A DNA stretch of 64,000 nt. Origin: Lobosporangium transversale. Lineage: Eukaryota; Mortierellomycota; Mortierellomycetes; Mortierellales; Mortierellaceae. Each line of letters starts with the position of its first letter. Within the stretch, counting starts at the first letter, position 1. The notes under the pieces are model-generated. The model made no database searches, was not told where the DNA came from, and worked only from the letters and a program-made list of their open reading frames with translations. Made by a program: the position numbers and the translations under genes. Location: NCBI RefSeq assembly GCF_002105155.1, contig NW_019028995.1, positions 682,001 to 746,000 on the forward strand. Direction: 5' to 3'. Shown here in pieces: positions 996-13,681 of this stretch.

Positions 996-1066
996 GAAAG
1001 TGTAGTATATGGGTATCATTCCGGCCTTCCAAGCCTGAGAACCGGGTTCGAGTCCCGGCACTTTCA
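996..1066 (+). tRNA. tRNA-Gly (anticodon UCC)
   Basis: The sequence folds as a cloverleaf. The 7-bp acceptor stem GAAAGTG/CACTTTC is perfect, the anticodon loop is CTTCCAA (anticodon TCC), and the T-arm is CCGGG-TTCGAGT-CCCGG. A-box (TAGTATATGGG) and B-box (GGTTCGAGTCC) promoters match consensus, and a TTTT Pol III terminator follows at 1067-1070. The anticodon stem CCGGC/GCCTG has one C-U mismatch at its second pair. The acceptor stem differs from the GCG-type start common in eukaryotic tRNA-Gly, so this could be a variant or a decaying copy. No intron is visible. Confidence 0.72.
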
Positions 1067-1390: not shown

Positions 1391-2772
1391 TTAATCTATT
1401 TGGCAGCCCATTGCCAAATGTAGTCAACTTTCAAGACTCTCTTTGGCGAATTAAGGAAAAATGCACCCCCCCGTCAGAATAAAATTCTGAGCCCCGGTTG
1501 AGAATTCCCTTGACCCGTCAACATTCATTTTTTCGGAATTCTTACCCCTGTCCCCCCGTCAGAATTCCGGTACACCCCCCGTAAAGATTTTCAAAATGTA
1601 AATCTTTACCCCCCCGTCAACCATCTTAATTGTGGGAATCCTTACCCCCCCGTCAACATTTTGAAGCTGTTTTTAAGAGAAGATTTTCTGTTCTTGGTTA
1701 TACCTAGATCTAACTAGCTATTTAGTTCGACACCATTGATCCTCTCTTACTTTGTATCTTGCCATCAAAGCATGACAGTAGATCAGTGGATCAGTTCCTT
1801 GATGAATGATCTCTTCCTAGATTCGTATTCATCAGGTTCAGAACCCTCGGCAACTTAACATACACCACATGCGTCCAACATAGTCTTAAAAGAAAAAGAC
1901 AAAAAAACATTGCATTATTATTCAGCGTCAACGCTTGGCGATCCTAAACCATCTTTACAATTAATAGAGGTTAAGATTAAAATACTGTACTAGTTGTGTG
2001 GAAATCATAGGATGTAGTACTCTTTTTTTTTTTTTTTTTTTTTTGAAAATCAGCTCCAGAATGTTGACGGGGGGATGAGAATTCCGGAAAGAGAAATGTT
2101 GACGGGGGGGTCAAGGGAATTCTCAACCGGGGGTCAAAATTTTATTCTGACGGGGGGGTGCATTTTTCCTTAATTCCTCTTTGGCAGCCCAGTTGCCAAA
2201 TAACATTCATTATTTACTTGGCAGCCTACCCAGCGTTATTTGGCCTCTAACTATTTTTTTTTTTTTTTTTTTCATACTTGAAAAAAAAAAAAAAAAGTCA
2301 TTAGTTTTCTAAATGAGACAAGACTACACATAACTATGACGTAGAAGACGGGAGTTTTATTAATTTAAAGTAGGTCGCTCATACAGTTTTGGAGGTGCCA
2401 TTTGGAGATCATTGCCTATGAGAGGTTTTCGCTCGGAGCAAACGCGTCTCACCTGCTACCTAGACGTCTTCAATAAATCATTCTCTAACCGTGTACATTG
2501 AAGGCTGTTTTGTGAAGATGTCATCGCCGCTGCCCTTAGTACCTCCGGCGGAATTAGCTATGCAAGGCAATGTATCCACAGAACGCTGCTTGTTTTACCA
2601 CTGATGTTATGACCCTGTTATCAAAAAAAAAAAAAAAAAAAAAAAAAAAAAGCAATGTATTTGGCAGCCCAGCTGCCACCCAAGAGTGCGAAGTTAAGTG
2701 GCAGCCCCAGAAGTAGGCAGCCAAATAGAGGCAAAAATTACTATATTTGGTATGGGCTGCCAAATAGATTAA
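1391..2772. mobile_element. Outer non-autonomous TTAA element (E1)
   Basis: The unit is bounded by TTAA at 1391-1394 and 2769-2772. It has perfect 17-bp terminal inverted repeats (TCTATTTGGCAGCCCAT at 1395-1411 and its reverse complement at 2752-2768). Motifs containing TTGGCAGCC recur inside, at about 1400, 2181, 2219, 2660 and 2692, several as small palindromes. It has no coding capacity. TTAA duplications with short inverted repeats are known from piggyBac-type transposition; the family assignment is inferred. It is inserted inside the left target duplication of the 10.9-kb element and is itself interrupted by a second element at 1455-2169. Confidence 0.6.
1451..2173. mobile_element. Inner non-autonomous TTAA element (E2)
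   Basis: The unit is flanked by TTAA at 1451-1454 and 2170-2173. Its long imperfect inverted termini start GGAAAAATGCACCCCCCC at the left and mirror this at the right, with similarity extending for about 120 bp. The termini and subtermini carry many copies of C(5-7)GTCA-type motifs in both orientations. No ORF is supported. Removing it restores a continuous E1 sequence around one TTAA. It is a miniature inverted-repeat element by structure; the piggyBac-type assignment rests only on the TTAA. Confidence 0.62.
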
Positions 2773-2775
2773 TCC
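2767..2775. repeat. Left 9-bp target-site duplication of the large element
   Basis: GATTAATCC lies immediately outside the TAGGCTCG terminus. The same 9 bp are found at 13673-13681. The copy has been split by insertion of E1 at its internal TTAA, which dates E1 after the large element. Confidence 0.7.
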
Positions 2776-3007
2776 TAGGCTCGTTCCCATCCCTCTTCAC
2801 TTTATAAAGGTGACAGGAAATTCCATTTCCTTTTTGAGTCACCTAAAGTGAAGGGGCTGGGAAAAAATCTTCGCTTATTAGCTGGTAGCTCAAAAAGGAA
2901 ATAAATAATGCACTTGAGGGAATATTCTTCCGTATATGCAAGGGACAGAACTAGTGGCTGTATTTTTTATAAGTATTTATACTTATAAAAAATTCATGCA
3001 CAATAAT

Positions 3008-3042
<35 letters not shown>

Positions 3043-3372
3043 CGCGTTCCACCTCCAATCCCCTTCACAGTCTGAGTCCTGAGCTCAAGGTGAATATTCT
3101 ATTCACAATTGCTGCATGCCATAGTTTTCTAGCAAAAAAAATAAAAAATAAAAAAAGTCTTTGTTTATTTTTGTAACATATTGTGATATTGTTTCATAAA
3201 CCTGAATGGGCTTGACTTCTTAACCTCACTTAATCGCTTCCCTTCCGCTTCTCTTTCGCACTTCTCTTTCTCGCTTCCCTTCCGCTTCTCTTTCTCGCTT
3301 CTCGGCTTACCTCTCTCAAACACTTATCTCTTCACTTCCTACACTCCACCCCTCTACAAACAACTTACGATG
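2776..3372 (+). repeat. Left terminal inverted repeat of the large element
   Basis: About 597 bp, matching 13077-13672 in inverse orientation. It contains a 27-28-nt poly-T, a small palindrome (TATAAGTATTTATACTTATA near 2968-2987), and a CT-rich tract with repeated CGCTTCCCTTC/CGCTTCTCTTTC units at 3234-3300. The CT-rich tract looks like a core promoter for the inward gene. The match runs through the ATG of the DUF6589-like gene at 3370-3372 and stops there. Confidence 0.85.
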
Positions 3373-6165
3373 GATTCTATCAAATTTCGTAATTTCAAAC
3401 CTATCAAGCTTCCTAAGAGCTATCGCACACCTAACCAGGCTACCCCATCGGTTCCTGAGCCGCTGAGAAACATGTATGTATACTATTGCTAAAACGGAAC
3501 CAATGTTAGTGTCAAATGTCAATGTGTCCTCAAATCTCACGTCTATCCTCCACATATCTCTTCATGCCCCTCATCTCTAGCACAATGCGCCAGATGTGGA
3601 AAGCATTGGAAGAAGGAGAAACCCCAACGCCTACATCGGAACAGCAGGAGGAGCTGGAAATTATCGGCGAAACTCCCTCCATCTATCCTTCCAATGATGA
3701 TTACTTGGTCGATATTTTTAAAGTGCTGGTAGAGGAAAAAAAAATATCGTTACGTCAATTCCTATCAGATGTATTTGAATCGCGCCATAGGGTCGTCCAA
3801 GGAAGCGTCAGGAGATTTTATGCTAATAGCGGTCCTGCTTCCATAGTCGAGACGTGGAAATCGCAATTGGAATCCGAAAAGGCTCATAATAAGGCATACG
3901 ACGATCTCGGTCGGGCTGCAGCAGACATTGTCGTTGATGGCGCAAAACGTGAACTCGAGGAGCTCACCAAGGCCGATGACCTGAGGCTTCCAGCCAAGAA
4001 TTTGTCCCCCAAGGTGGTCCAGGAATTTTCATTAAATTTAAATAAGAAGTTGGAATCAGCACCCCTGCTCTTCAAAATCATCTCCAATTTGACATCGGTC
4101 AACCCTTACTCCATTGAAAAAGCACCAGCAATTCGTGTCACTATCGTTAGCATGTTGGTGAAACTCTGTTCCCAGAAGTCGAACTACTTGCAAATGATGA
4201 TGGGACTTCATCTGCATGCCTCGGGATGTCCAAAGCGTGTGATAAATTTGCTCGCTGTGAGTGGTCTATCGGTGTCACATATGACGATCTGCACAGCCCT
4301 CAGATCGTTAACAAGGAATTCTCTTCAGGAGGTTCGTTCCCAAGTTAGGAAGCGCCCATGGTACTTGCTGTATGATAACATTAATATGGCCAATCGGAAA
4401 TATGACCAGCGCAGCAATAACTTAGACTCCTTCGATAATGGGACCACCGCGACCATCGTGCTCGGCGAGGATATTGGGCCAGATCAAGATCAAGATGTAC
4501 TTCCCATCTCCATTTGCACCCTTATTCCAAGGCAATTGCACTCAAGGTGAGGCACAGACACAAAAACACGACTGAAGTGCATAATCAGTCTACCTTTTTT
4601 TTTTTTTTTTTTTTTTTTTTAGCTAATCGTTCTGATAATGCCGTAGAGATGTCACTCGGTTCCATTTGATCGACGTTCTTCAGCGGCATTTCACCACCTA
4701 CGGCTGCTCGATGGATGCCCCTTCAATAGAGCCCCTTGAAGTAAAGGAGACAAAAACATACCCGTTGCCTGCGTTGAAGATCGATCAATCAACTATATCA
4801 GGCAACATTGAGATCCTTGAGACAATAATGAGAGACACGCTTCAGCTGCCTGAAGAGTGGTTCACCGACTATACAAAAGTTATAGTTGCGGGGGATCAGC
4901 TTACCATATCCAGAATAGCATCCTTGCAAGAACTACGCAGAGAAGATAGAACAAGTTTCGATCGAATGCAATGGGCGATTCCTGTGATACAGCTCTTTCA
5001 CCTCCAAATGGTTCTCTGTGGTACAATCCTTCGTACTCATTATGGGTCCTTTTCATCACCAGGGTCTCTGGGTTTTATTATATCCATGCTGGGGCGAAAG
5101 CGACTTGGCCGTGATACATCCAACTTTCACGCCGCAGACGAACTGATAAGGCATACTTTCGATGCAATGGTAAGACGGCTATGGGAAGTTGAGTTTGGGC
5201 TAAATATCAGCGACATGCAGGCTTATGAGTGCAGGCTAGAGAACTATGGCAAGTCGGACAATATTTTAGGCAAAGTTTGCGAAGGGGTCGACGCTGTCAT
5301 ACAAAAGTGGTTGCGCAACGCACATCAGATCGCCGAGGAAAGCGGCAGTGCGAATGCAAACGCGGCTTTGTTTATCAGGGATGCTCTTGTTTATATCGAA
5401 TTGGGTGCAGCCATAAAGGCTGGGGACATCGGACGCATCCAAGATGTGCTGGGAACGATAACCGTCATGTTTCAAGCTGGAGGAATGAAAAACTATGCAG
5501 GCGAGCTCTTGCGTTTGACATATGGGATCCACTACGGCTGGTCTGCACAACGGAGGAAGGCTATTTTGTCCTCCTTGCTGATAAATACGAAGGGCAAGGA
5601 GAATGGGTGGATCCCTGCGGATTTGTACCAAGAGCACAATAACCTGCTGACAAAAGTCATTCATGCAGCGAAGGAAAGCAATATGTCCTGGGAGACATTG
5701 GCCAATTCAATATCTACCAACATTCGTCTGTTTTCGAAGCTCAAGTCGGTGCTCGAGTCACAGTACAACATGATTCCCAACAGTACTCGACACTCACCAG
5801 TTTCTGTCGATGAAGATATCATAAGAATTGTAGCTCATCTTCGTGACTATAATATTCTTGGCAGAGGTTCCTGTCTGGGCAGCAGCCATATTCCGATTAC
5901 CACAGATTTGTATTGCGAAGGCTTTGAAAAGCTGGTAGCAGGACGCTTCCAAAACATTGTTAAGCACATTTCCGAACGAAATAGTACCGAAGACATGGCG
6001 ACTGTTCTCGCAAGCCTTGCGATAGAAGATCAACAGGTGGAGTCGTATATTACCTCCTGTTTCCCTGAAAACATGCAGACAGATGGATACGATAGCCCAG
6101 ATTTAGATGTGATAGCAGATGATGAATACGACTTCTCTGACCTAGATGAGGCATTTAGGGAATAG
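3370..6165 (+). CDS. DUF6589-like protein, proposed transposase of the large element
   Basis: Three exons (3370-3473, 3581-4546, 4647-6165) give 862 residues with consistent phase. Introns begin GTATGT and GTGAGG; the second has a 20+ nt poly-T before its acceptor. Conserved-looking blocks are YDNINM (Asp300), an NGTTAT stretch soon after, GDQLT (Asp440), a FDRMQWAIP/QLFHLQM block, and AADELIRHTFDAM (Glu522). From memory these match the DUF6589 family, common in fungal genomes and of unknown function. The spaced Asp/Asp/Glu residues could form a DDE site of an RNase H-like fold. That is inference, supported by location: it is the one large intact gene between the TIRs and starts exactly at the TIR edge. 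The C-terminus is acidic. Confidence 0.75.
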
Positions 6166-6747
6166 TGCAATGTCCCCGTCATGGAGGTCCATTTTCTTTG
6201 AATCCAGACAGTAGCTTCACATAGAAGCTTACTCTGTACAGGAGCAAGGATCAATCCTCCCGCATTTATACCTCGTCCCCTGCCCTGTCTCCAGCTCCAA
6301 TTATGTTCTCATTTCTGGTCCTTTCTCTGCTCTTATTCTTTGCTCCAATATCATCCTCATCAGCATAAGCCTTGTGAGAACCTTCGCACTTTTGTCGTCC
6401 CAGCCTGTATCATCTCAAGTACCACTTCTACTGTATCATTTTGTAATTTATTATTGTCTGTATCATATTGCAATCTATTGTCCTAATCATGTTCATCACA
6501 TTGTAGTTTATTGTAATACCATTCTATTGTATATAATTCAGTGTAGACTAGGTTCCTTCTTTTTCATAATGGTTCTTTTATCTTCACCCATTTAGTCTTA
6601 TTTATTGTATAAATATCGTCTTTGTCGTCATTTAATAAAAATCGCAGAAAGATAATATAGAAGCATGGCGGGAGGGAGACATAATCTGATATGAAAAAAA
6701 ATGTAAAGGACTCCGCGTTGATGATGATAAAATTACTCATACGTCTT
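6166..6747. other. Convergent 3' intergenic stretch inside the large element
   Basis: This stretch lies between the ends of the plus-strand DUF6589-like gene and the minus-strand broken gene. It is AT-rich, with repeated TGTATCAT/ATTGTA-type words around 6406-6545 and AATAAA at 6636. No coding region is supported. Confidence 0.5.
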
Positions 6748-8132
6748 TCACGGTTGTAGTATTCTCTTTAGCTGCGCCTCAACGTTGACTGTGATAGTAC
6801 CGGTGTTGATACGAGTCAGTTCTGTTTGTATTTTGTCTGCAAGACCGCTCAGCTTTTTATCAACCTCCGCCGAGACAGGCCTTGTCTCTTCCGCCTTCAT
6901 GACTTTGACCAATTGCTCCAGATTTTTGTAAATCCCGCCATTACCTTGCTTGGCATGCGGAATCAGGGCCAAGTAATCCTCCACCTGCTTCTTCAGCACA
7001 ACGCCCTTGTCACTGTAGAGTTCGTAGAAAATATAGGCAGCAAGCTTGAGGCCTGACCATCCCTTCTGCTGATGCTTGAAATGCCACAAAGTCGCCAACA
7101 GCACTGGACTGGTGAAGGGCGATTTAAACTGAGGATGTACGGCAGCGTGCTTGCCGTACGTGGCCTCTTCGTCAAAGTTGGACCGCGTCTGACGCTCCAC
7201 ATTGTTGTACAGGTATTCCTCACTACCTTCTTGAGCCATATGTGCGACTCACTGTGAGGATTGAAAACGATGTTATGTGGCCCCACAATAACTTTGCCAC
7301 TCGTCAGCACAACTCCCATCGTCACTAGAGCACTCCATGCGGTTGTTCCAATCATCAGCTGGCTGGTACGATTGAACAACTGACTGGCGACCTTGACCAC
7401 CTTGCTACCTGGAAAAGCCACGAATGCATCGGCATGGGGGTCCTCGGACTGAAGACGGCTGTACACCTCCACCTTAAGACACATGATAACGTCGTTACCA
7501 GACTGGATCAGACAGCTCTGCAACTTCCTTGCCACCTGCTCGCTGTTACCTAAGAACGGCATGTGCCAAAACTAGTCGTTATCCTTCGCCAGCTCGTACT
7601 CCTCCAGCTTCACCAGCCGACCGTAAGGCTGAGGCTTCAGAGCCATCTCCAAGTCCGCGTCCTCCAGTGTCCTTTCTTGTTGATGGTTCAAAGGGCTCAC
7701 CAAGGCGACTTCCCTTCTTTCTTAAGTATATAGGCTCGGGGAGCAAGCGCAAAACCAAACAGCTTCTCGCCGTCCATTAACTTTATCGATATTGACATAA
7801 ACATATTCTTGGCAAATTCAGCACTAGCAACATGCTTCACGTTGTCGATAAGCTCCATCTCAAATAAACGCCAGTCCTCCTGAGACACGCTAACCGGCCA
7901 TGATTCGCATTTGAGGGAGTGGCTCGCAAGAGCCGCAACGTCTTTCAAGGAGTTTTGTTTCTTCGCTTTCTCTGTCATCTTCATCGGCTCCTTGCACCAC
8001 GAACACGGCCGCGGGAACACGAGTTTGCTGACCATTGGACACTTAAGGAGATGGTCCTTCAGTGACCTGTGGGTCTGGACAGAGTGGTCGTAGCATTCAC
8101 ACTTGAGGGTAGAATTCGTCCGCGGGATCCAT
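6748..8132 (-). pseudogene. Broken zinc-finger cargo gene of the large element
   Basis: Four collinear coding blocks on the minus strand read as one protein of roughly 440 residues starting MDPADEFYPQ at 8132. The N-terminal part has Cys/His clusters (CEC...H...H...C, then CSWC...H...C) suggesting one or two zinc fingers. The C-terminal part (6748-7239) is helical and charged and ends KRILQP. The frame is broken in at least four places: near 8100 (after PQV), near 7700, an in-frame TAG at about 7573 where Trp would fit, and near 7245 (an extra AT). Small deletions explain all of these. Splicing out 23-29 nt could repair two of them but would need ultrashort introns. I do not recognise the family. 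Confidence 0.5.
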
Positions 8133-8328
8133 CGTGCGACTCACTCCGATGGTTGCGAAGAGACAGGGCCGAGGAAAGCCCACTCATACAAAGATAAAAA
8201 ACCTTGGCGTTAAACTTAGCTATGGGTCCAATAGGTCAGATGAAGGTGCCCCCAGTTTATACGACACTCGTCAATCCATGTTTGAATGCGTGTATGATCT
8301 TGCGAATGCGTGTTGTTTACACATTATT

Positions 8329-8365
<37 letters not shown>

Positions 8366-8898
8366 AAAACGATGTGCTTCTAACACTCTCAGCTTCACCC
8401 CTTTTTTTGTTGCACCTTTTTTTTACACCTTTTTTTACACCTACGCCTTTTTTTACACCTACGCCTTTTTACGCCTTTTTTTACACCTTTTTTTACACCT
8501 TTTTTTTTTTTTTTTTTTTGATATGGTACACTCTTTTTTTAACATCTCGGCTAACGCTTCAGTTAATGCGCTTTATACCTTCAGTCATGTTTCCAGCAGA
8601 CACCTAACGTTCTCACCCAATGCACCTCTTTTCCTCATTTTCCGATTACATGTCCAACGACCTAATTCAACTCTACTGAAGTCCTCTCTTTTTTCTAGTC
8701 ATTAAAGCTTACAGCAATAGACGAGTTTGTGAGTGATCCTTTCCCAAGCTTGCATTCGTCACTAGGCTCAAACCTTCAGCCTTCAGCACCTTTACACGCA
8801 CTACATGAGTCCCCCATTGTCATAAAATAATTACATTTTATAGTATATAAAAAAATAATAAATAATAATTAAGGATTTTATTTCTCAGCGGAAATTGG
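8133..8898. repeat. T-rich low-complexity stretch with TTTTTTTACACC units
   Basis: Poly-T runs lie at about 8331-8361 and 8500-8519. Between them, at 8398-8500, are irregular tandem copies of a CCTTTTTTTACACCTACG-like unit. The apparent long ORF here is an artefact of T-rich codons (Phe-rich). Nothing else is supported to 8898. Confidence 0.6.
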
Positions 8899-9275
8899 TT
8901 ATAACTCGATTTCGAGGTCGCCATGTTGCTTAGCAATACCATACACGGTATACTGCGCCGGATGGTCCATATTGCGGACATACTCGGGTAGCTGGGTTTT
9001 CGTTGGACCTCTTATATTGCTTACGCCAGCTGGACTCTCCTTTATCTTGTCCACAGGAGTAGTGGGGTTTAGGTTATGGAAAGGATACCTTGTGCTCTAT
9101 TAACATTGTCTGTAATATTAAAGGGACAGGCATCTCTCATTAACCATTTATACATACAGACTTTACACTGGTTGCATTTACTTAAATACTTGTAGCTTAG
9201 CTTTATTTTATCTTCAGAGTTGAGCCATTGACACTGAAAGCAAGGCCGATCTTTTGAAAGCCTCTTCTTCCACTG
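8899..9275 (-). CDS. Cys-cluster coding segment, probable exon(s) of a cargo gene
   Basis: On the minus strand, the frame from about 9275 contains CFQCQW, then about 24 residues later CNQCKVC, and a further Cys after a KWLMRDA stretch. This spacing suggests zinc binding. It meets a stop near 9080. In the next frame about 57 codons continue without stops and finish IEL at 8899. The switch needs either a very short intron starting GTATCC or a one-base frameshift. There is no ATG at the 5' end, and a CTCAG acceptor-like site precedes the first block. It could therefore be a downstream exon of the gene at 9446-10204. Family unknown. Confidence 0.35.
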
Positions 9276-9445
9276 AGCGTAAGGTGGAAAAATTCATGTG
9301 CCAAACCTGATTCAATTCAAGTAGTGAGTTGTTTCAGTCGATCGATACCACAAATATATTTTTTTATGCTTCAAAACTCTGGTGCCTGAGTGTGACCTCT
9401 AACTCTGTCAAATTGCACTTTTATTAATGTCGATGAAAAAAAATA

Positions 9446-10204
9446 CTATTTTGTAGATGGCTCTACGGATGTTCGAGCTCTCTTACTATGACGAGGAGAA
9501 CTGTTTGGCTCGCTAGCAGTCTCCTCTTGATCGACAGGATGCTTGGCTGGCACAACCGTCTTATATAGCTCTATCCATAGAGCTGCCCTTTCCTCCAAGC
9601 GTTTACTATGAGGCGCTTCCACGCCAACAGCGGTCAGCTCAGTGAAAACCTTGCGCAGACCCCTAGCTGCCAACTCCTGCATTGACTCTGTGGTGCTTGC
9701 AACCACAGGCGCCTCAGCCACTCTATGTTGTTGTTGCAGAGTAGCCCTTGCTTTTTTGGCGGTCTCCCAATCCTCCTCCGAGACCAGCCGAAGCTTGAGC
9801 TTCTCCAACTGCTTGAACAACGATGGCTCATGCAGACGGAATAGCGTGAAGCCTTCACGCTTTAGCACGTGGCCCTTGGGTGTCCTTGCCTCTTGACCCT
9901 CGAGTACCAACCATTCTCGAGGATAGACTTCATCCCCGTCCTGATACTCGGCTGGCAAAGGGTCAGACCGCCCGCGGATTGAACACTGGTACGGATCCAG
10001 GAAAAGTTTACTATATACACTTAACAGGTTTTCCGTGGACACTGGTTTGAAAGGCACTAGCCTGCCACGGTACTCGTTTGGATCGGATTGAGTACTCGAT
10101 GACACCTCGTTAACGTTGGGAGTGCTCTCTACTTCGTCACGAGTACGTTTCCTGCTAGTGCTAACTGCAGAGGAAGAAGAAACGATGTTGTTAGTGGAAG
10201 ACAT
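9446..10204 (-). CDS. Unknown cargo protein with basic N-terminal motif
   Basis: A 252-codon open frame starts with ATG at 10204. The N-terminus is Ser-rich with an SRKRTRDE motif resembling a nuclear localisation signal. The middle is charged and predicted helical (FKQLEKLKLRLVSEEDWETAKKAR would be part of a coiled segment). The C-terminus ends with another basic cluster, SKRARTS. No recognisable domain. It lies inside the large transposon, head-to-head with the gene at 10669, and may continue into the Cys-cluster segment at 8899-9275 through an intron. A nuclear accessory role in transposition is a guess from position and motif only. Confidence 0.5.
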   Translation of the reverse strand: MSSTNNIVSSSSAVSTSRKRTRDEVESTPNVNEVSSSTQSDPNEYRGRLVPFKPVSTENLLSVYSKLFLDPYQCSIRGRSDPLPAEYQDGDEVYPREWLVLEGQEARTPKGHVLKREGFTLFRLHEPSLFKQLEKLKLRLVSEEDWETAKKARATLQQQHRVAEAPVVASTTESMQELAARGLRKVFTELTAVGVEAPHSKRLEERAALWIELYKTVVPAKHPVDQEETASEPNSSPRHSKRARTSVEPSTK

Positions 10205-10668
10205 GTGTAATAGGTAGTGAAGACAAAAGGTGATTTTATTATAAATATTAAAACAAGCCTTTTTATAGGCTTAAGGCTATATACTGTTACAACATGCGAA
10301 ATGGTTTCTAAGAAAAAAAATTTTTTTTTTCTGTTTCTAGCCTGGGCCCCATATTTCTCTTCTGGAGCCGATGACAAAGTTTCGATTTTTGCTGGCCAAG
10401 TTAACTGGTCAAGAGAATAATATAAAAAAAAAGTTCACATAAAGATATTAGTGGACGTGCAAAAAAATCAACCGACGGACTAAAGTGGTGTAAGAGTGTT
10501 GGGTACGTACCGCTTTTCTCAAAACTACTGGTGTAAAAAAGTTGGGTATACGCACGCAACTTTTTTAACCAGAAGGCTAATCCTTTCAACTATAAGAATT
10601 TTGTAAAGTAAACCATTTGTATTTGAAAGAGTCTAGAAATTAAAATTTAAAATTTAAAAAAGGCCAAC
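10205..10668. promoter_or_regulatory. Divergent promoter region between two cargo genes
   Basis: 464 bp separate the starts of the minus-strand gene (10204) and the plus-strand gene (10669). AT-rich, with no coding evidence. This is inferred to contain promoters for both. Confidence 0.35.
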
Positions 10669-11704
10669 ATGAAAGAAATTCACTCTCTCACCTTCTCATC
10701 CACATCAAGTTTTGGGATGCCTAAAGCTAAACAAAAAAAACTCAAGGCTATCACGGCTATCACGGCTATCACGGCTATCACGCATGGAGCAGCCCCTCCT
10801 TCTTACGATGGTAAAGAAAGCCATTCTTCCTCTGCAACCGCCAACATTTACATCAAACCACTTTTTGGCAACAAGCTGTGCATCGTCTACATTGCTACAC
10901 TGACAGACAATGGCATGTTCAAACCGCCCGGGGAAGGATGTGATGAAATTGGGCAACCAGGGTTTTCTCGGCATGTCCACAAATGCCATGCGTGCCATAC
11001 GATGATTGAAGAAATGTTGACGAAGAAAAAAAAAGGTCCAAAAAACGCCTCGTTTGCGTTACTGCCTGACCACCAGAGCCGGAACCACCATTATCTCGAC
11101 TCGAACCCGATCGTCATATCCACAAAACTCCTTAATCCAACGTATTCCAGCGAGGCATCCTCTGTTCTACCAGATCCCAGTGAGATATCCTCTCCTCCCC
11201 CAGATCCTAGCAAGACATCCTCTTCTCCTCCAGACCCATTTTCTCCTCAGTTAGATCACATCACGGAAGCTGTCTCGCCAGATCTCACCTCAGAAGAGCT
11301 ACAGTTCACAGTCCAACCCTGGGCAAGTCGCTCTGTCACCCCCTGTTCGGATGAGCTCCTGTCGCGAAAACAGAAGCGTATATTAGATGGAATGGACTTG
11401 GCACCCCGCGTGGCTCCACCAGGGCGTTCTGAAACCCCCAGCAAGTGTGGTAGTGAAACTGCATCTCGTCTAAGAGCACTAGAAGAGGGTATCTGTAAGT
11501 TAGTTGATATCAATTCGATTCAGTTGAGAACAACAGAGAACAAGCTTTCTGATATCTGTACTTTTTATTTTTTATTTTTTTAATTTTTTTAATGTTATTT
11601 TTGCCTAATGTGCTTTGCCATGTCTACTTGTGATCTGCACAGCTGAGATGAAGAGAATGCAAAGCGCCATATTAAGCGAACTAAAAAAAAATGACCGCAC
11701 CTGA
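10669..11704 (+). CDS. Unknown two-exon cargo protein with proline-rich centre
   Basis: Exon 1 (10669-11557) joins exon 2 (11643-11704) across a GTACTT...CACAG intron, keeping phase and ending at TGA, for about 316 residues. Near the N-terminus four tandem copies of CACGGCTAT (about 10751-10786) encode an Ala-Ile-Thr repeat after a Lys-rich stretch. A possible metal site, KCHACH, follows a His-rich stretch around residue 100. The centre has repeated SSPPPDPS-type units, and the C-terminus is helical (SRLRALEEG...). No family recognised. Start chosen at the first ATG; a second ATG 14 codons later is also possible. Confidence 0.5.
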
Positions 11705-12747
11705 GGCCAAGCATGGATGATTTTAGGAGAGTTCGACTAACTCGTTAGTTTTCTTTTTTTTTTTATTAATATAAAAAATCTGTGTTTTGCGGACATGGAC
11801 TTCTCTCATGTTTGCCCCTTTCATGGGATACAGGCGTTTTATTAAAGATAACGGTTACTTAATATCAGAGCTTGTTTTGGAGTTTGCCAAACAAGCGGTT
11901 CGGAGCCAACTTTCTTTTGTCCTGCATGAGTTGTTTTGGCTGTAAACTACTTCACTTCCTCTTGCAATAAACCTATTTGTATCACGACAGTCTAAGCCCA
12001 ACTCATCTTCCCTATTTGTGGGGGAACAATCCGACGCTTGCTGAACTCTGCTTCAGTTTTAGTAGGAAGATCCGACATCAAAAGATCAAAAAACAATGTT
12101 GTTTCTTGGCTGTCACTAGCCAGACTATTGACAAATTTTCTTGCAACTGGGTGGATGTTAAACGGACTCTTCCCTTGAAGCACAAAAAGAGTGAAGTGAA
12201 AATTGGCCACAGGTCATCATTTACTCCACAATCCAGTGCGTTGTCGCTGAAAAATATTTAGGATAGATAGTAGACTGTCAAAAAGTAAGTGAGAATAAGA
12301 CGTGGGTCCACACACCACACCCATGGATTATTTTATTCATTTCTGGTAGAGAGACTTGTATCAGATAGCTACATATCTATCTGTAATAATACAACATGGT
12401 TTCGCATGTCAGCGATTTGTCGCGTCTTAGTGTGACGCATTATTGCCACTGGTTTCTACCGCTATTTTTATTTTTTATCGATCAGTTTTTTAGTCGGACC
12501 ATTATTATTGCATATTGAAATATGCAACAACTTTCCCTTTTATTGAGGAATGAGGCACGCATTCCAGGCACAGAAACGGTTTGAGATTAGACTCAAAGAA
12601 GGATCGCGATTGCTATGCTTAATTTTTTAACTTTTTAATTTTTTAATTTTTTTTTTTTAAGCTTTTTCCTGATAGATTTCTGAGATTTAGTACGCTTTAT
12701 TACAAACTAAAATGTTTCAACAATCAATTGGGACAGATGACACTATG
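11705..12747. other. Intragenic spacer of the large element containing a dispersed-repeat relic
   Basis: No gene is supported here. Two opposed short ORFs at 11977-12261 cannot be told apart from chance. The part at about 12262-12480 is a diverged relative of 45476-45700. Shared words include a GAGAATAA...TGGGYCCA...ACACYACA block and a GCATTATTGCCACTRG block. Confidence 0.4.
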
Positions 12748-13079
12748 TTAGCTGCCATTGGGGTTTCCACGTTTGGAGAAGTCAAAAGAGGTCATATTAT
12801 GGAACGCGATCTTTGGCTTTGCGGTAGGCCGTGGTTTTTGAACACGGCCATTCCGGCCAATATGGGACTCCTTCTTTTGGAGCTGCGGTTGCATTTCAGG
12901 CTGGCACGCACTATCGATGTCCTTATTTAAATTGATAAGGAGATTGGCGAGTTCCGTTAAAATGTCGTCGTTTATAAAGGTCCAACCGGTAATTGATGTT
13001 ACCGATTCGGGCGACGTAAAACGCACAAGCCAATGTAACTCCTATGGTCGACCAGCGAAGGAGTGTTGCTAGGATTCAT
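12748..13079 (-). pseudogene. Small right-end gene starting in the right TIR, one apparent frameshift
   Basis: The inverted repeat supplies an ATG at 13077-13079 on the minus strand, mirroring the ATG of the DUF6589-like gene. The first about 13 codons (MNPSNTPSLVDHR) are open. A one-base shift near 13040 then joins a 90-codon frame (RFTSPESVTSITGW...) that stops at 12748. An AATAAA signal lies just downstream. The shift may be a lost G in an AGGG run, or undetected splicing. The product has a charged Gln/Lys-rich C-terminus and no recognised domain. Confidence 0.4.
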
Positions 13080-13406
13080 CGTAAGTTGTTTGTAGAGGGG
13101 TGGAGTGTAGGAAGTGAAGAGATAAGTGTTTGAGAGAGGTAAGCCGAGAAGCGAGAAAGAGAAGCGGAAGGGAAGCGAGAAAGAGAAGTGCGAAAGAGAA
13201 GCGGAAGGGAAGCGATTAAGTGAGGTTAAGAAGTCAAGCCCATTCAGGTTTATGAAACAATATCACAATATGTTACAAAAATAAACAAAGACTTTTTTTA
13301 TTTTTTATTTTTTTTGCTAGAAAACTATGGCATGCAGCAATTGTGAATAGAATATTCACCTTGAGCTCAGGACTCAGACTGTGAAGGGGATTGGAGGTGG
13401 AACGCG

Positions 13407-13438
<32 letters not shown>

Positions 13439-13672
13439 TTATTATTGTGCATGAATTTTTTATAAGTATAAATACTTATAAAAAATACAGCCACTAGTTC
13501 TGTCCCTTGCATATACGGAAGAATATTCCCTCAAGTGCATTATTTATTTCCTTTTTGAGCTACCAGCTAATAAGCGAAGATTTTTTCCCAGCCCCTTCAC
13601 TTTAGGTGACTCAAAAAGGAAATGGAATTTCCTGTCACCTTTATAAAGTGAAGAGGGATGGGAACGAGCCTA
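13077..13672 (-). repeat. Right terminal inverted repeat of the large element
   Basis: Reverse complement of 2776-3372, including the poly-A/T tract, palindrome, CT-rich promoter-like tract and a start codon facing inward. No mismatch was found by eye other than homopolymer length. Confidence 0.85.
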
Positions 13673-13681
13673 GATTAATCC
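13673..13681. repeat. Right 9-bp target-site duplication of the large element
   Basis: GATTAATCC, identical to 2767-2775. Confidence 0.7.

Follow-up and report, generated by a model that had tools for sequence, protein, structure and literature searches.

A 10,897-bp element at positions 2776-13672 of a 64,000-nucleotide stretch of the genome of Lobosporangium transversale, a Mortierellomycete soil fungus (contig NW_019028995.1; this whole stretch is hereafter called the window), is a DNA transposon with long terminal inverted repeats (TIRs) and 9-bp target-site duplications (TSDs). We consider it quite likely that the element derives by internal deletion from a DDE transposon with a two-gene core, comprising a DUF6589 transposase and a RecQ-like superfamily-2 helicase, and that it most likely belongs to AcademH. 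New here is the assignment of DUF6589 as the transposase, which it very probably is.

Both ends of the element start with TAGGCTCG..., and its arms align with 99.3% identity over 608 columns, with three mismatches and one gap. A preliminary description of this DNA had proposed a transposon with long TIRs and a 9-bp TSD, which is borne out by this alignment and by the duplication of GATTAATCC on either side. That description placed its limits at 2767-13681 and gave the TIRs a length of about 597 bp; the element does lie there, but this span includes the TSDs, and the TIRs measure 608 bp. With its near-identical TIRs and intact TSD, the element was probably active recently, as had been suggested. 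The first 88 bp of the left TIR match solitary, hairpin-like miniature elements of 96 bp found elsewhere in the genome.

The terminal repeat has 84 matches in the 42.7-Mb genome, and a 14-base end pattern, TAGGCTCGTNNCCA, occurs 166 times, compared with 5 occurrences of a reversed control. TSDs were counted in the 16 elements with both ends read, most of the 166 pattern places lying outside this count. We looked for other genomic copies with distinct 9-bp TSDs and found them: nine of 14 tabulated elements carry an exact 9-bp duplication (GATTAATCC twice, AAGTTTCTC, GGGTTTGCC, GGGGCTGCC, GGTCATTGT, GCCTAGGGG, GCAAAAAGG and GGATTTTTA), the remaining five showing 7, 3 or zero matching bases. Two further elements with both ends, C40:774408-780036 and the 894-bp C46:69735, have no TSD, which brings the overall figure to 9/16. 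Three elements with a missing or damaged end were left out (C40:824442, C84:857176-869274 and C84:60354-71266). Among the five both-ended elements that contain DUF6589, an exact TSD flanks four, namely the window element, C62:492302-504783, C46:70634-77778 and C40:1683796-1689378; the fifth, C40:774408, has no TSD and lies inside a palindrome.

The ends are of two types that have their first nine bases in common. Type A, seen in the window and in C62, reads TAGGCTCGTTCCCA or ..ACCCA, with TIRs of 0.5-0.6 kb; type B, seen in C46 and both C40 copies, reads TAGGCTCGTCACCA. The DUF6589 gene is bounded by type-A ends in some copies and by type-B ends in others, and short elements were found with both kinds. 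When the window element was compared with the C40 copy by BLAST, no DNA similarity was detected except in T-tracts. In the stretches read around two other DUF6589 loci, C35 and C68, we found zero ends for the former and one for the latter.

The second gene of the core is seen most clearly in the 5.6-kb element C40:774408, which contains two convergent open reading frames (ORFs), one encoding DUF6589 (897 aa) and the other a 705-aa protein with DEAD and Helicase_C domains in its first 345 residues. Among NCBIfam families, this helicase best matches TIGR00614, a RecQ family (E 9.2e-52, below the family's cut-off with the piece given), and WRN, BLM and RecQ chains rank first among PDB sequences. 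In C40:1683796-1689378, which has an exact TSD, both frames are open, with 865 aa for DUF6589 and 706 aa for the helicase. In C46, the helicase gene is broken by a 343-aa ORF at about G000:C46:73856-75458, for which the C40 copy provides the uninterrupted site; judged by eye, the interrupting ORF looks Tc1/mariner-like, apparently with a TA duplication.

A genome search with the type-B helicase core as query, which may miss diverged helicases, gave 52 matches. A helicase was found at most 15 kb from 12 of 37 DUF6589 clusters, where 1.07 would be expected, and the nearest partner is convergent in 11 of these 12, the exception being C14; no DUF6589 lies near 13 of the 25 stronger helicase clusters. 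The RecQ-like helicase is not confined to one end type: apart from the broken gene in C46, it is present in C62, C84 and the two C40 copies. It is absent from the window copy. In the sister copies C62 and C84, the helicase is located near the end opposite DUF6589, with the two genes facing each other. The window element is collinear with C62, with 98.3-99.6% identity where compared, except that 1,599 bp of C62 (C62:492953-494551), which include the helicase-core match, are missing at window position 13018/13019; C84 also has DNA at the corresponding place. Since type-A and type-B elements share the helicase in the same position, its loss from the window copy by internal deletion is the simpler reading, and the term "complete", used in the preliminary description, does not apply. 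Separately, G000:C84:60354-71266 has two identical-scoring, inverted helicase ORFs between diverged type-A-like ends, with no DUF6589 match between them.

The DUF6589 (PF20231) domain of the window element is located at 4714-5793 (Pfam scan, E 9.6e-96). As a reference we used P0001, the annotated L. transversale DUF6589 protein, which is about 98% like the window product; the spliced product, read from 3594, agrees with it at 97.7% over 789 columns and has no internal stop. In a structural comparison of two predicted DUF6589 models, the first 34 rows for one model and the first 25 for the other were all DDE enzymes, each of them Hermes, P element, Tn5, ISCth4, RAG or Transib. In the P0001 model, D265 lies in b1, D405 follows the strand 400-404 and E651 is part of the helix 646-663, and the predicted models thus display an RNase H-like core in which the three acidic residues occupy the expected places. 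The D-D-E triad is almost invariant among DUF6589 relatives. The fold is therefore predicted to be like that of DDE transposases, and, given this prediction and the near-invariant triad, DUF6589 is very probably the transposase of these elements. This agrees with the preliminary description, which saw a DUF6589-like protein as the only candidate transposase and no transposase of the Mutator-like element (MULE) type; none of the seven window ORFs scanned matched the MULE family PF10551.

Sequence comparisons with transposase families returned little. P0001 matched zero transposase families in Pfam at E 1, and for 56 relatives the best 25 of 47 Pfam families included only two with transposase names, both weak (HTH_Tnp_Tc3_2_like, E 0.054, and Nterm_IS4, E 0.092). 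A DUF6589 profile had no match among the sequences of solved structures in the PDB. Kolobok, Dada, Zisupton and other superfamilies do not appear in the structural listing, an absence that carries no weight. Two protein searches yielded at least 140 and at least 411 DUF6589 relatives, many of them fungal among the best 120 of each; in a search with a fungus-wide alignment, every organism named in the best 120 of 221 was a fungus, a sample that neither shows nor excludes animal DUF6589. No relatives were found in viral contigs. A His after b5 is conserved in 52 of 53 sequences, within [G/Q]LFH, and three residues before it, the one position scanned, there is G in 36 sequences and Q in 17, with neither C nor D in any. 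A C/DxxH motif between the second D and the last E is described as a signature of hAT, P, MuDR, Kolobok and Dada (PMC9587614).

These observations suggest the following mechanism. DUF6589 would bind to, and assemble on, the long ends, and its D-D-E centre in the RNase H fold would cut them; the cut ends would then be joined to the target at 9-bp staggered cuts, giving rise to the 9-bp duplications. The helicase may unwind DNA in the course of strand transfer or repair. Miniature derivatives of 96 bp and about 380 bp would be mobilised in trans by this machinery. The window copy retained the transposase gene and the cargo but not the helicase region.

Comparison with named transposons points to AcademH of the Academ superfamily, the primary paper on which is reportedly Kojima 2020 (Mob DNA 11:15). 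The elements described here have a very probable DDE transposase, a fungal host, 9-bp TSDs (9/14 tabulated, 9/16 of all) and an element-encoded RecQ-like helicase, the last being present in the sister copies and absent from the window copy. In the papers that mention it, AcademH is described as encoding a helicase and making 9- or 10-bp TSDs (PMC10045372) and as a low-copy element of Basidiomycota, Ascomycota and Mucoromycota (PMC10799480), and Academ is described as carrying a RecQ helicase (PMC3627910). The TSD length found here falls within that range, and the comparison, made by the traits given in these citing papers and not by transposase sequence, shows no difference. Judged by these traits, the DUF6589 element most likely belongs to the AcademH lineage, and the earlier proposal of a new type of transposon is probably wrong, since a DDE transposase, a RecQ helicase, TSDs of 9 to 10 bp and fungal hosts are how Academ/AcademH is described.

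Alternatively, DUF6589 elements might constitute a separate, unnamed superfamily outside Academ, which independently gained both a RecQ-like helicase and 9-bp TSDs and, in some lineages, picked up host DNA such as the 28S rRNA fragment and the cargo genes listed below. The Pfam results given above would agree with this, as would the literature searched, mostly without subscription papers, in which "DUF6589" is not mentioned and a link between PF20231 and a transposon seems to be unwritten. Moreover, the helicase alone is not diagnostic, since RecQ helicases also sit in KolobokH. However, in helicase, TSD length and fungal range these elements agree with what the papers above say of AcademH, and we regard a separate superfamily, including the acquisition of host DNA that it entails, as rather unlikely.

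KolobokH itself shares several traits with the elements described here. It is described as fungal, with a RecQ helicase and a DDD/E transposase, and in one rhodophyte Kolobok the complementary strand encodes the RecQ helicase, as is the case here (PMC9587614). According to the same source, however, Kolobok elements have 4-bp TTAA TSDs and RR...YY termini, with TSDs of 3-5 bp in KolobokP, whereas we find varied 9-bp TSDs and TA...TA termini; the helicase of our elements is a separate, convergent gene. The solved folds closest to the predicted DUF6589 models are those of the hAT transposase Hermes and the P element transposase, in which a large helical insertion into the RNase H core precedes the last acidic residue. 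hAT TSDs are usually 8 bp, with variants of 5-7 bp (PMC12730594), in contrast to the 9 bp found here, and there is no PDB sequence match; the hAT dimerisation domain (PF05699) was not found in P0001, in the window ORFs or in the 25 of 47 families for the 56 relatives.

The combination of 9-bp TSDs and long TIRs is also a feature of MULE/MuDR elements, but it is not diagnostic for Mutator because AcademH shares the TSD length. It might nevertheless be argued that DUF6589 is a passenger and that a MULE transposase moves the element in trans, as in Pack-MULEs. The genome contains 21 PF10551 matches, none of them in the window, and one of these MULEs lies within C73:597435-608780, which carries the terminal 96 bp of the window element at either end and is flanked by a 9-bp duplication. 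This MULE (PF10551, E 3.7e-23) has a FAR1 match just under the cut-off and an Ulp1 protease domain; no DUF6589 match was found in C73:597435-608780. It has its own ends, however, GGACTAAGGAATAATGC and GAATAAAGGAAAAATGC, flanked on both sides by a 9-bp TSD of its own, AAGATTTTT, and it splits a type-A miniature element of about 380 bp into a left part of 294 bp and a right part of 96 bp with a 9-bp overlap, as expected of a duplication. This nesting was read from comparison with a MULE copy in C91 and with the 379-bp miniature element C62:645188. The C91 MULE is 97-98% identical to that in C73 and has the same ends of its own; it has no matching TSD, and no type-A ends were seen. C73 was therefore rejected as an autonomous MULE with the ends of the window element. 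Likewise, the 894-bp C46:69735 contains MULE-derived sequence inside type-A ends, and this remnant keeps its MULE ends. As MULE ends lie inside type-A ends in both cases, the MULE is twice a tenant. The two MULEs with ends read have ends other than those of the window element, no MULE domain was detected in the scanned ORFs of the element or in P0001, and an hhalign comparison of DUF6589 with four local MULEs gave a probability of 0.2%. With DUF6589 itself having a predicted DDE fold and a conserved D-D-E, mobilisation by a MULE appears very improbable.

An origin of the two arms by misassembly or by segmental inverted duplication, as might be asked in view of the copy C40:774408-780036 in its palindrome, can practically be dismissed, because the window arms stop exactly at the TSD, the flanks beyond the TSDs are unlike each other, and other 9-bp duplications in the genome enclose ends that are nearly identical. 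The palindrome around that type-B element (G000:C40:770569-783874) has 4.4-kb arms of 99.95% identity.

Table 1. Features of the transposon in the window
Feature	Position	Strand	Basis
Left 9-bp TSD, GATTAATCC	2767-2775	no strand	
Left TIR, 608 bp, begins TAGGCTCGTTCCCA	2776-3383	+	self-alignment of arms
DUF6589 gene, first coding exon, holding the first conserved Asp (YDN)	3585-4546	+	start codon as in annotated homologue P0001
Intron, 100 bp, T-rich, GT...AG ends	4547-4646	+	spliced product compared with P0001
DUF6589 gene, second exon: PF20231 domain, second Asp (GDQLT), Glu (QEHN)	4647-6165	+	
Cargo region with three ORFs (163, 189 and 112 aa), none matching Pfam at E 1	6748-8035	-	
Cargo ORF, 252 aa, no Pfam match above cut-off	9446-10204	-	
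Cargo ORF, 304 aa, without a match in Pfam at E 1	10669-11583	+	
Nuclear 28S rRNA fragment, 150 bp (RF02543 positions 2830-2984)	11974-12123	-	
Probable deletion junction, helicase region gone relative to C62	13018/13019	no strand	comparison with C62 copy
Right TIR, 607 bp	13066-13672	-	self-alignment of arms
Right 9-bp TSD, GATTAATCC	13673-13681	no strand	

The core machine of these elements is the gene pair of DUF6589 and helicase, and the cargo lies outside it, extra cargo ORFs being a trait of type-A copies. In a genome search, the 163-aa and 252-aa cargo ORFs were also found in the C62 and C84 copies, where the latter is split in two, and neither had a match in type-B elements. The 28S rRNA fragment is common to the C37 (window), C62 and C84 copies at 100% (rounded). 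A PADLOC scan gave a single weak match, DrmC (E 0.031). The 252-aa ORF represents a repeated family: 29 stretches of the genome match it, its own included, and some of these are arranged as inverted pairs, for example, C1:1406980/1413460.

Four type-A insertions adjoin GATTAATC(C): those at window 2767-2775, G000:C62:389115, C117:655801 and C40:824442. This shared flank possibly reflects a target preference or insertion into a common repeat. An Rfam scan of 18 flanking stretches gave matches in two: the C117 insertion has a U6 gene at a distance of about 20 bp, and the C62 insertion has a tRNA gene about 85 bp away. The window has a tRNA gene at 996-1066 (+), about 1.7 kb upstream of the element.

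The element thus probably belongs to a lineage that already has a name, and what is gained is that a DUF family can be assigned as its transposase. As the layout with two genes and the nesting of the MULE show, a fungal element should not be called Mutator-like on the strength of a 9-bp duplication alone. With its exact TSD and both genes open, C40:1683796-1689378 is suited to testing the role of a RecQ-type helicase in a transposon. Many fungal proteins listed as "DUF6589, unknown function" are very probably transposases; gene annotation should therefore count them among mobile elements, and they can be studied as one family.
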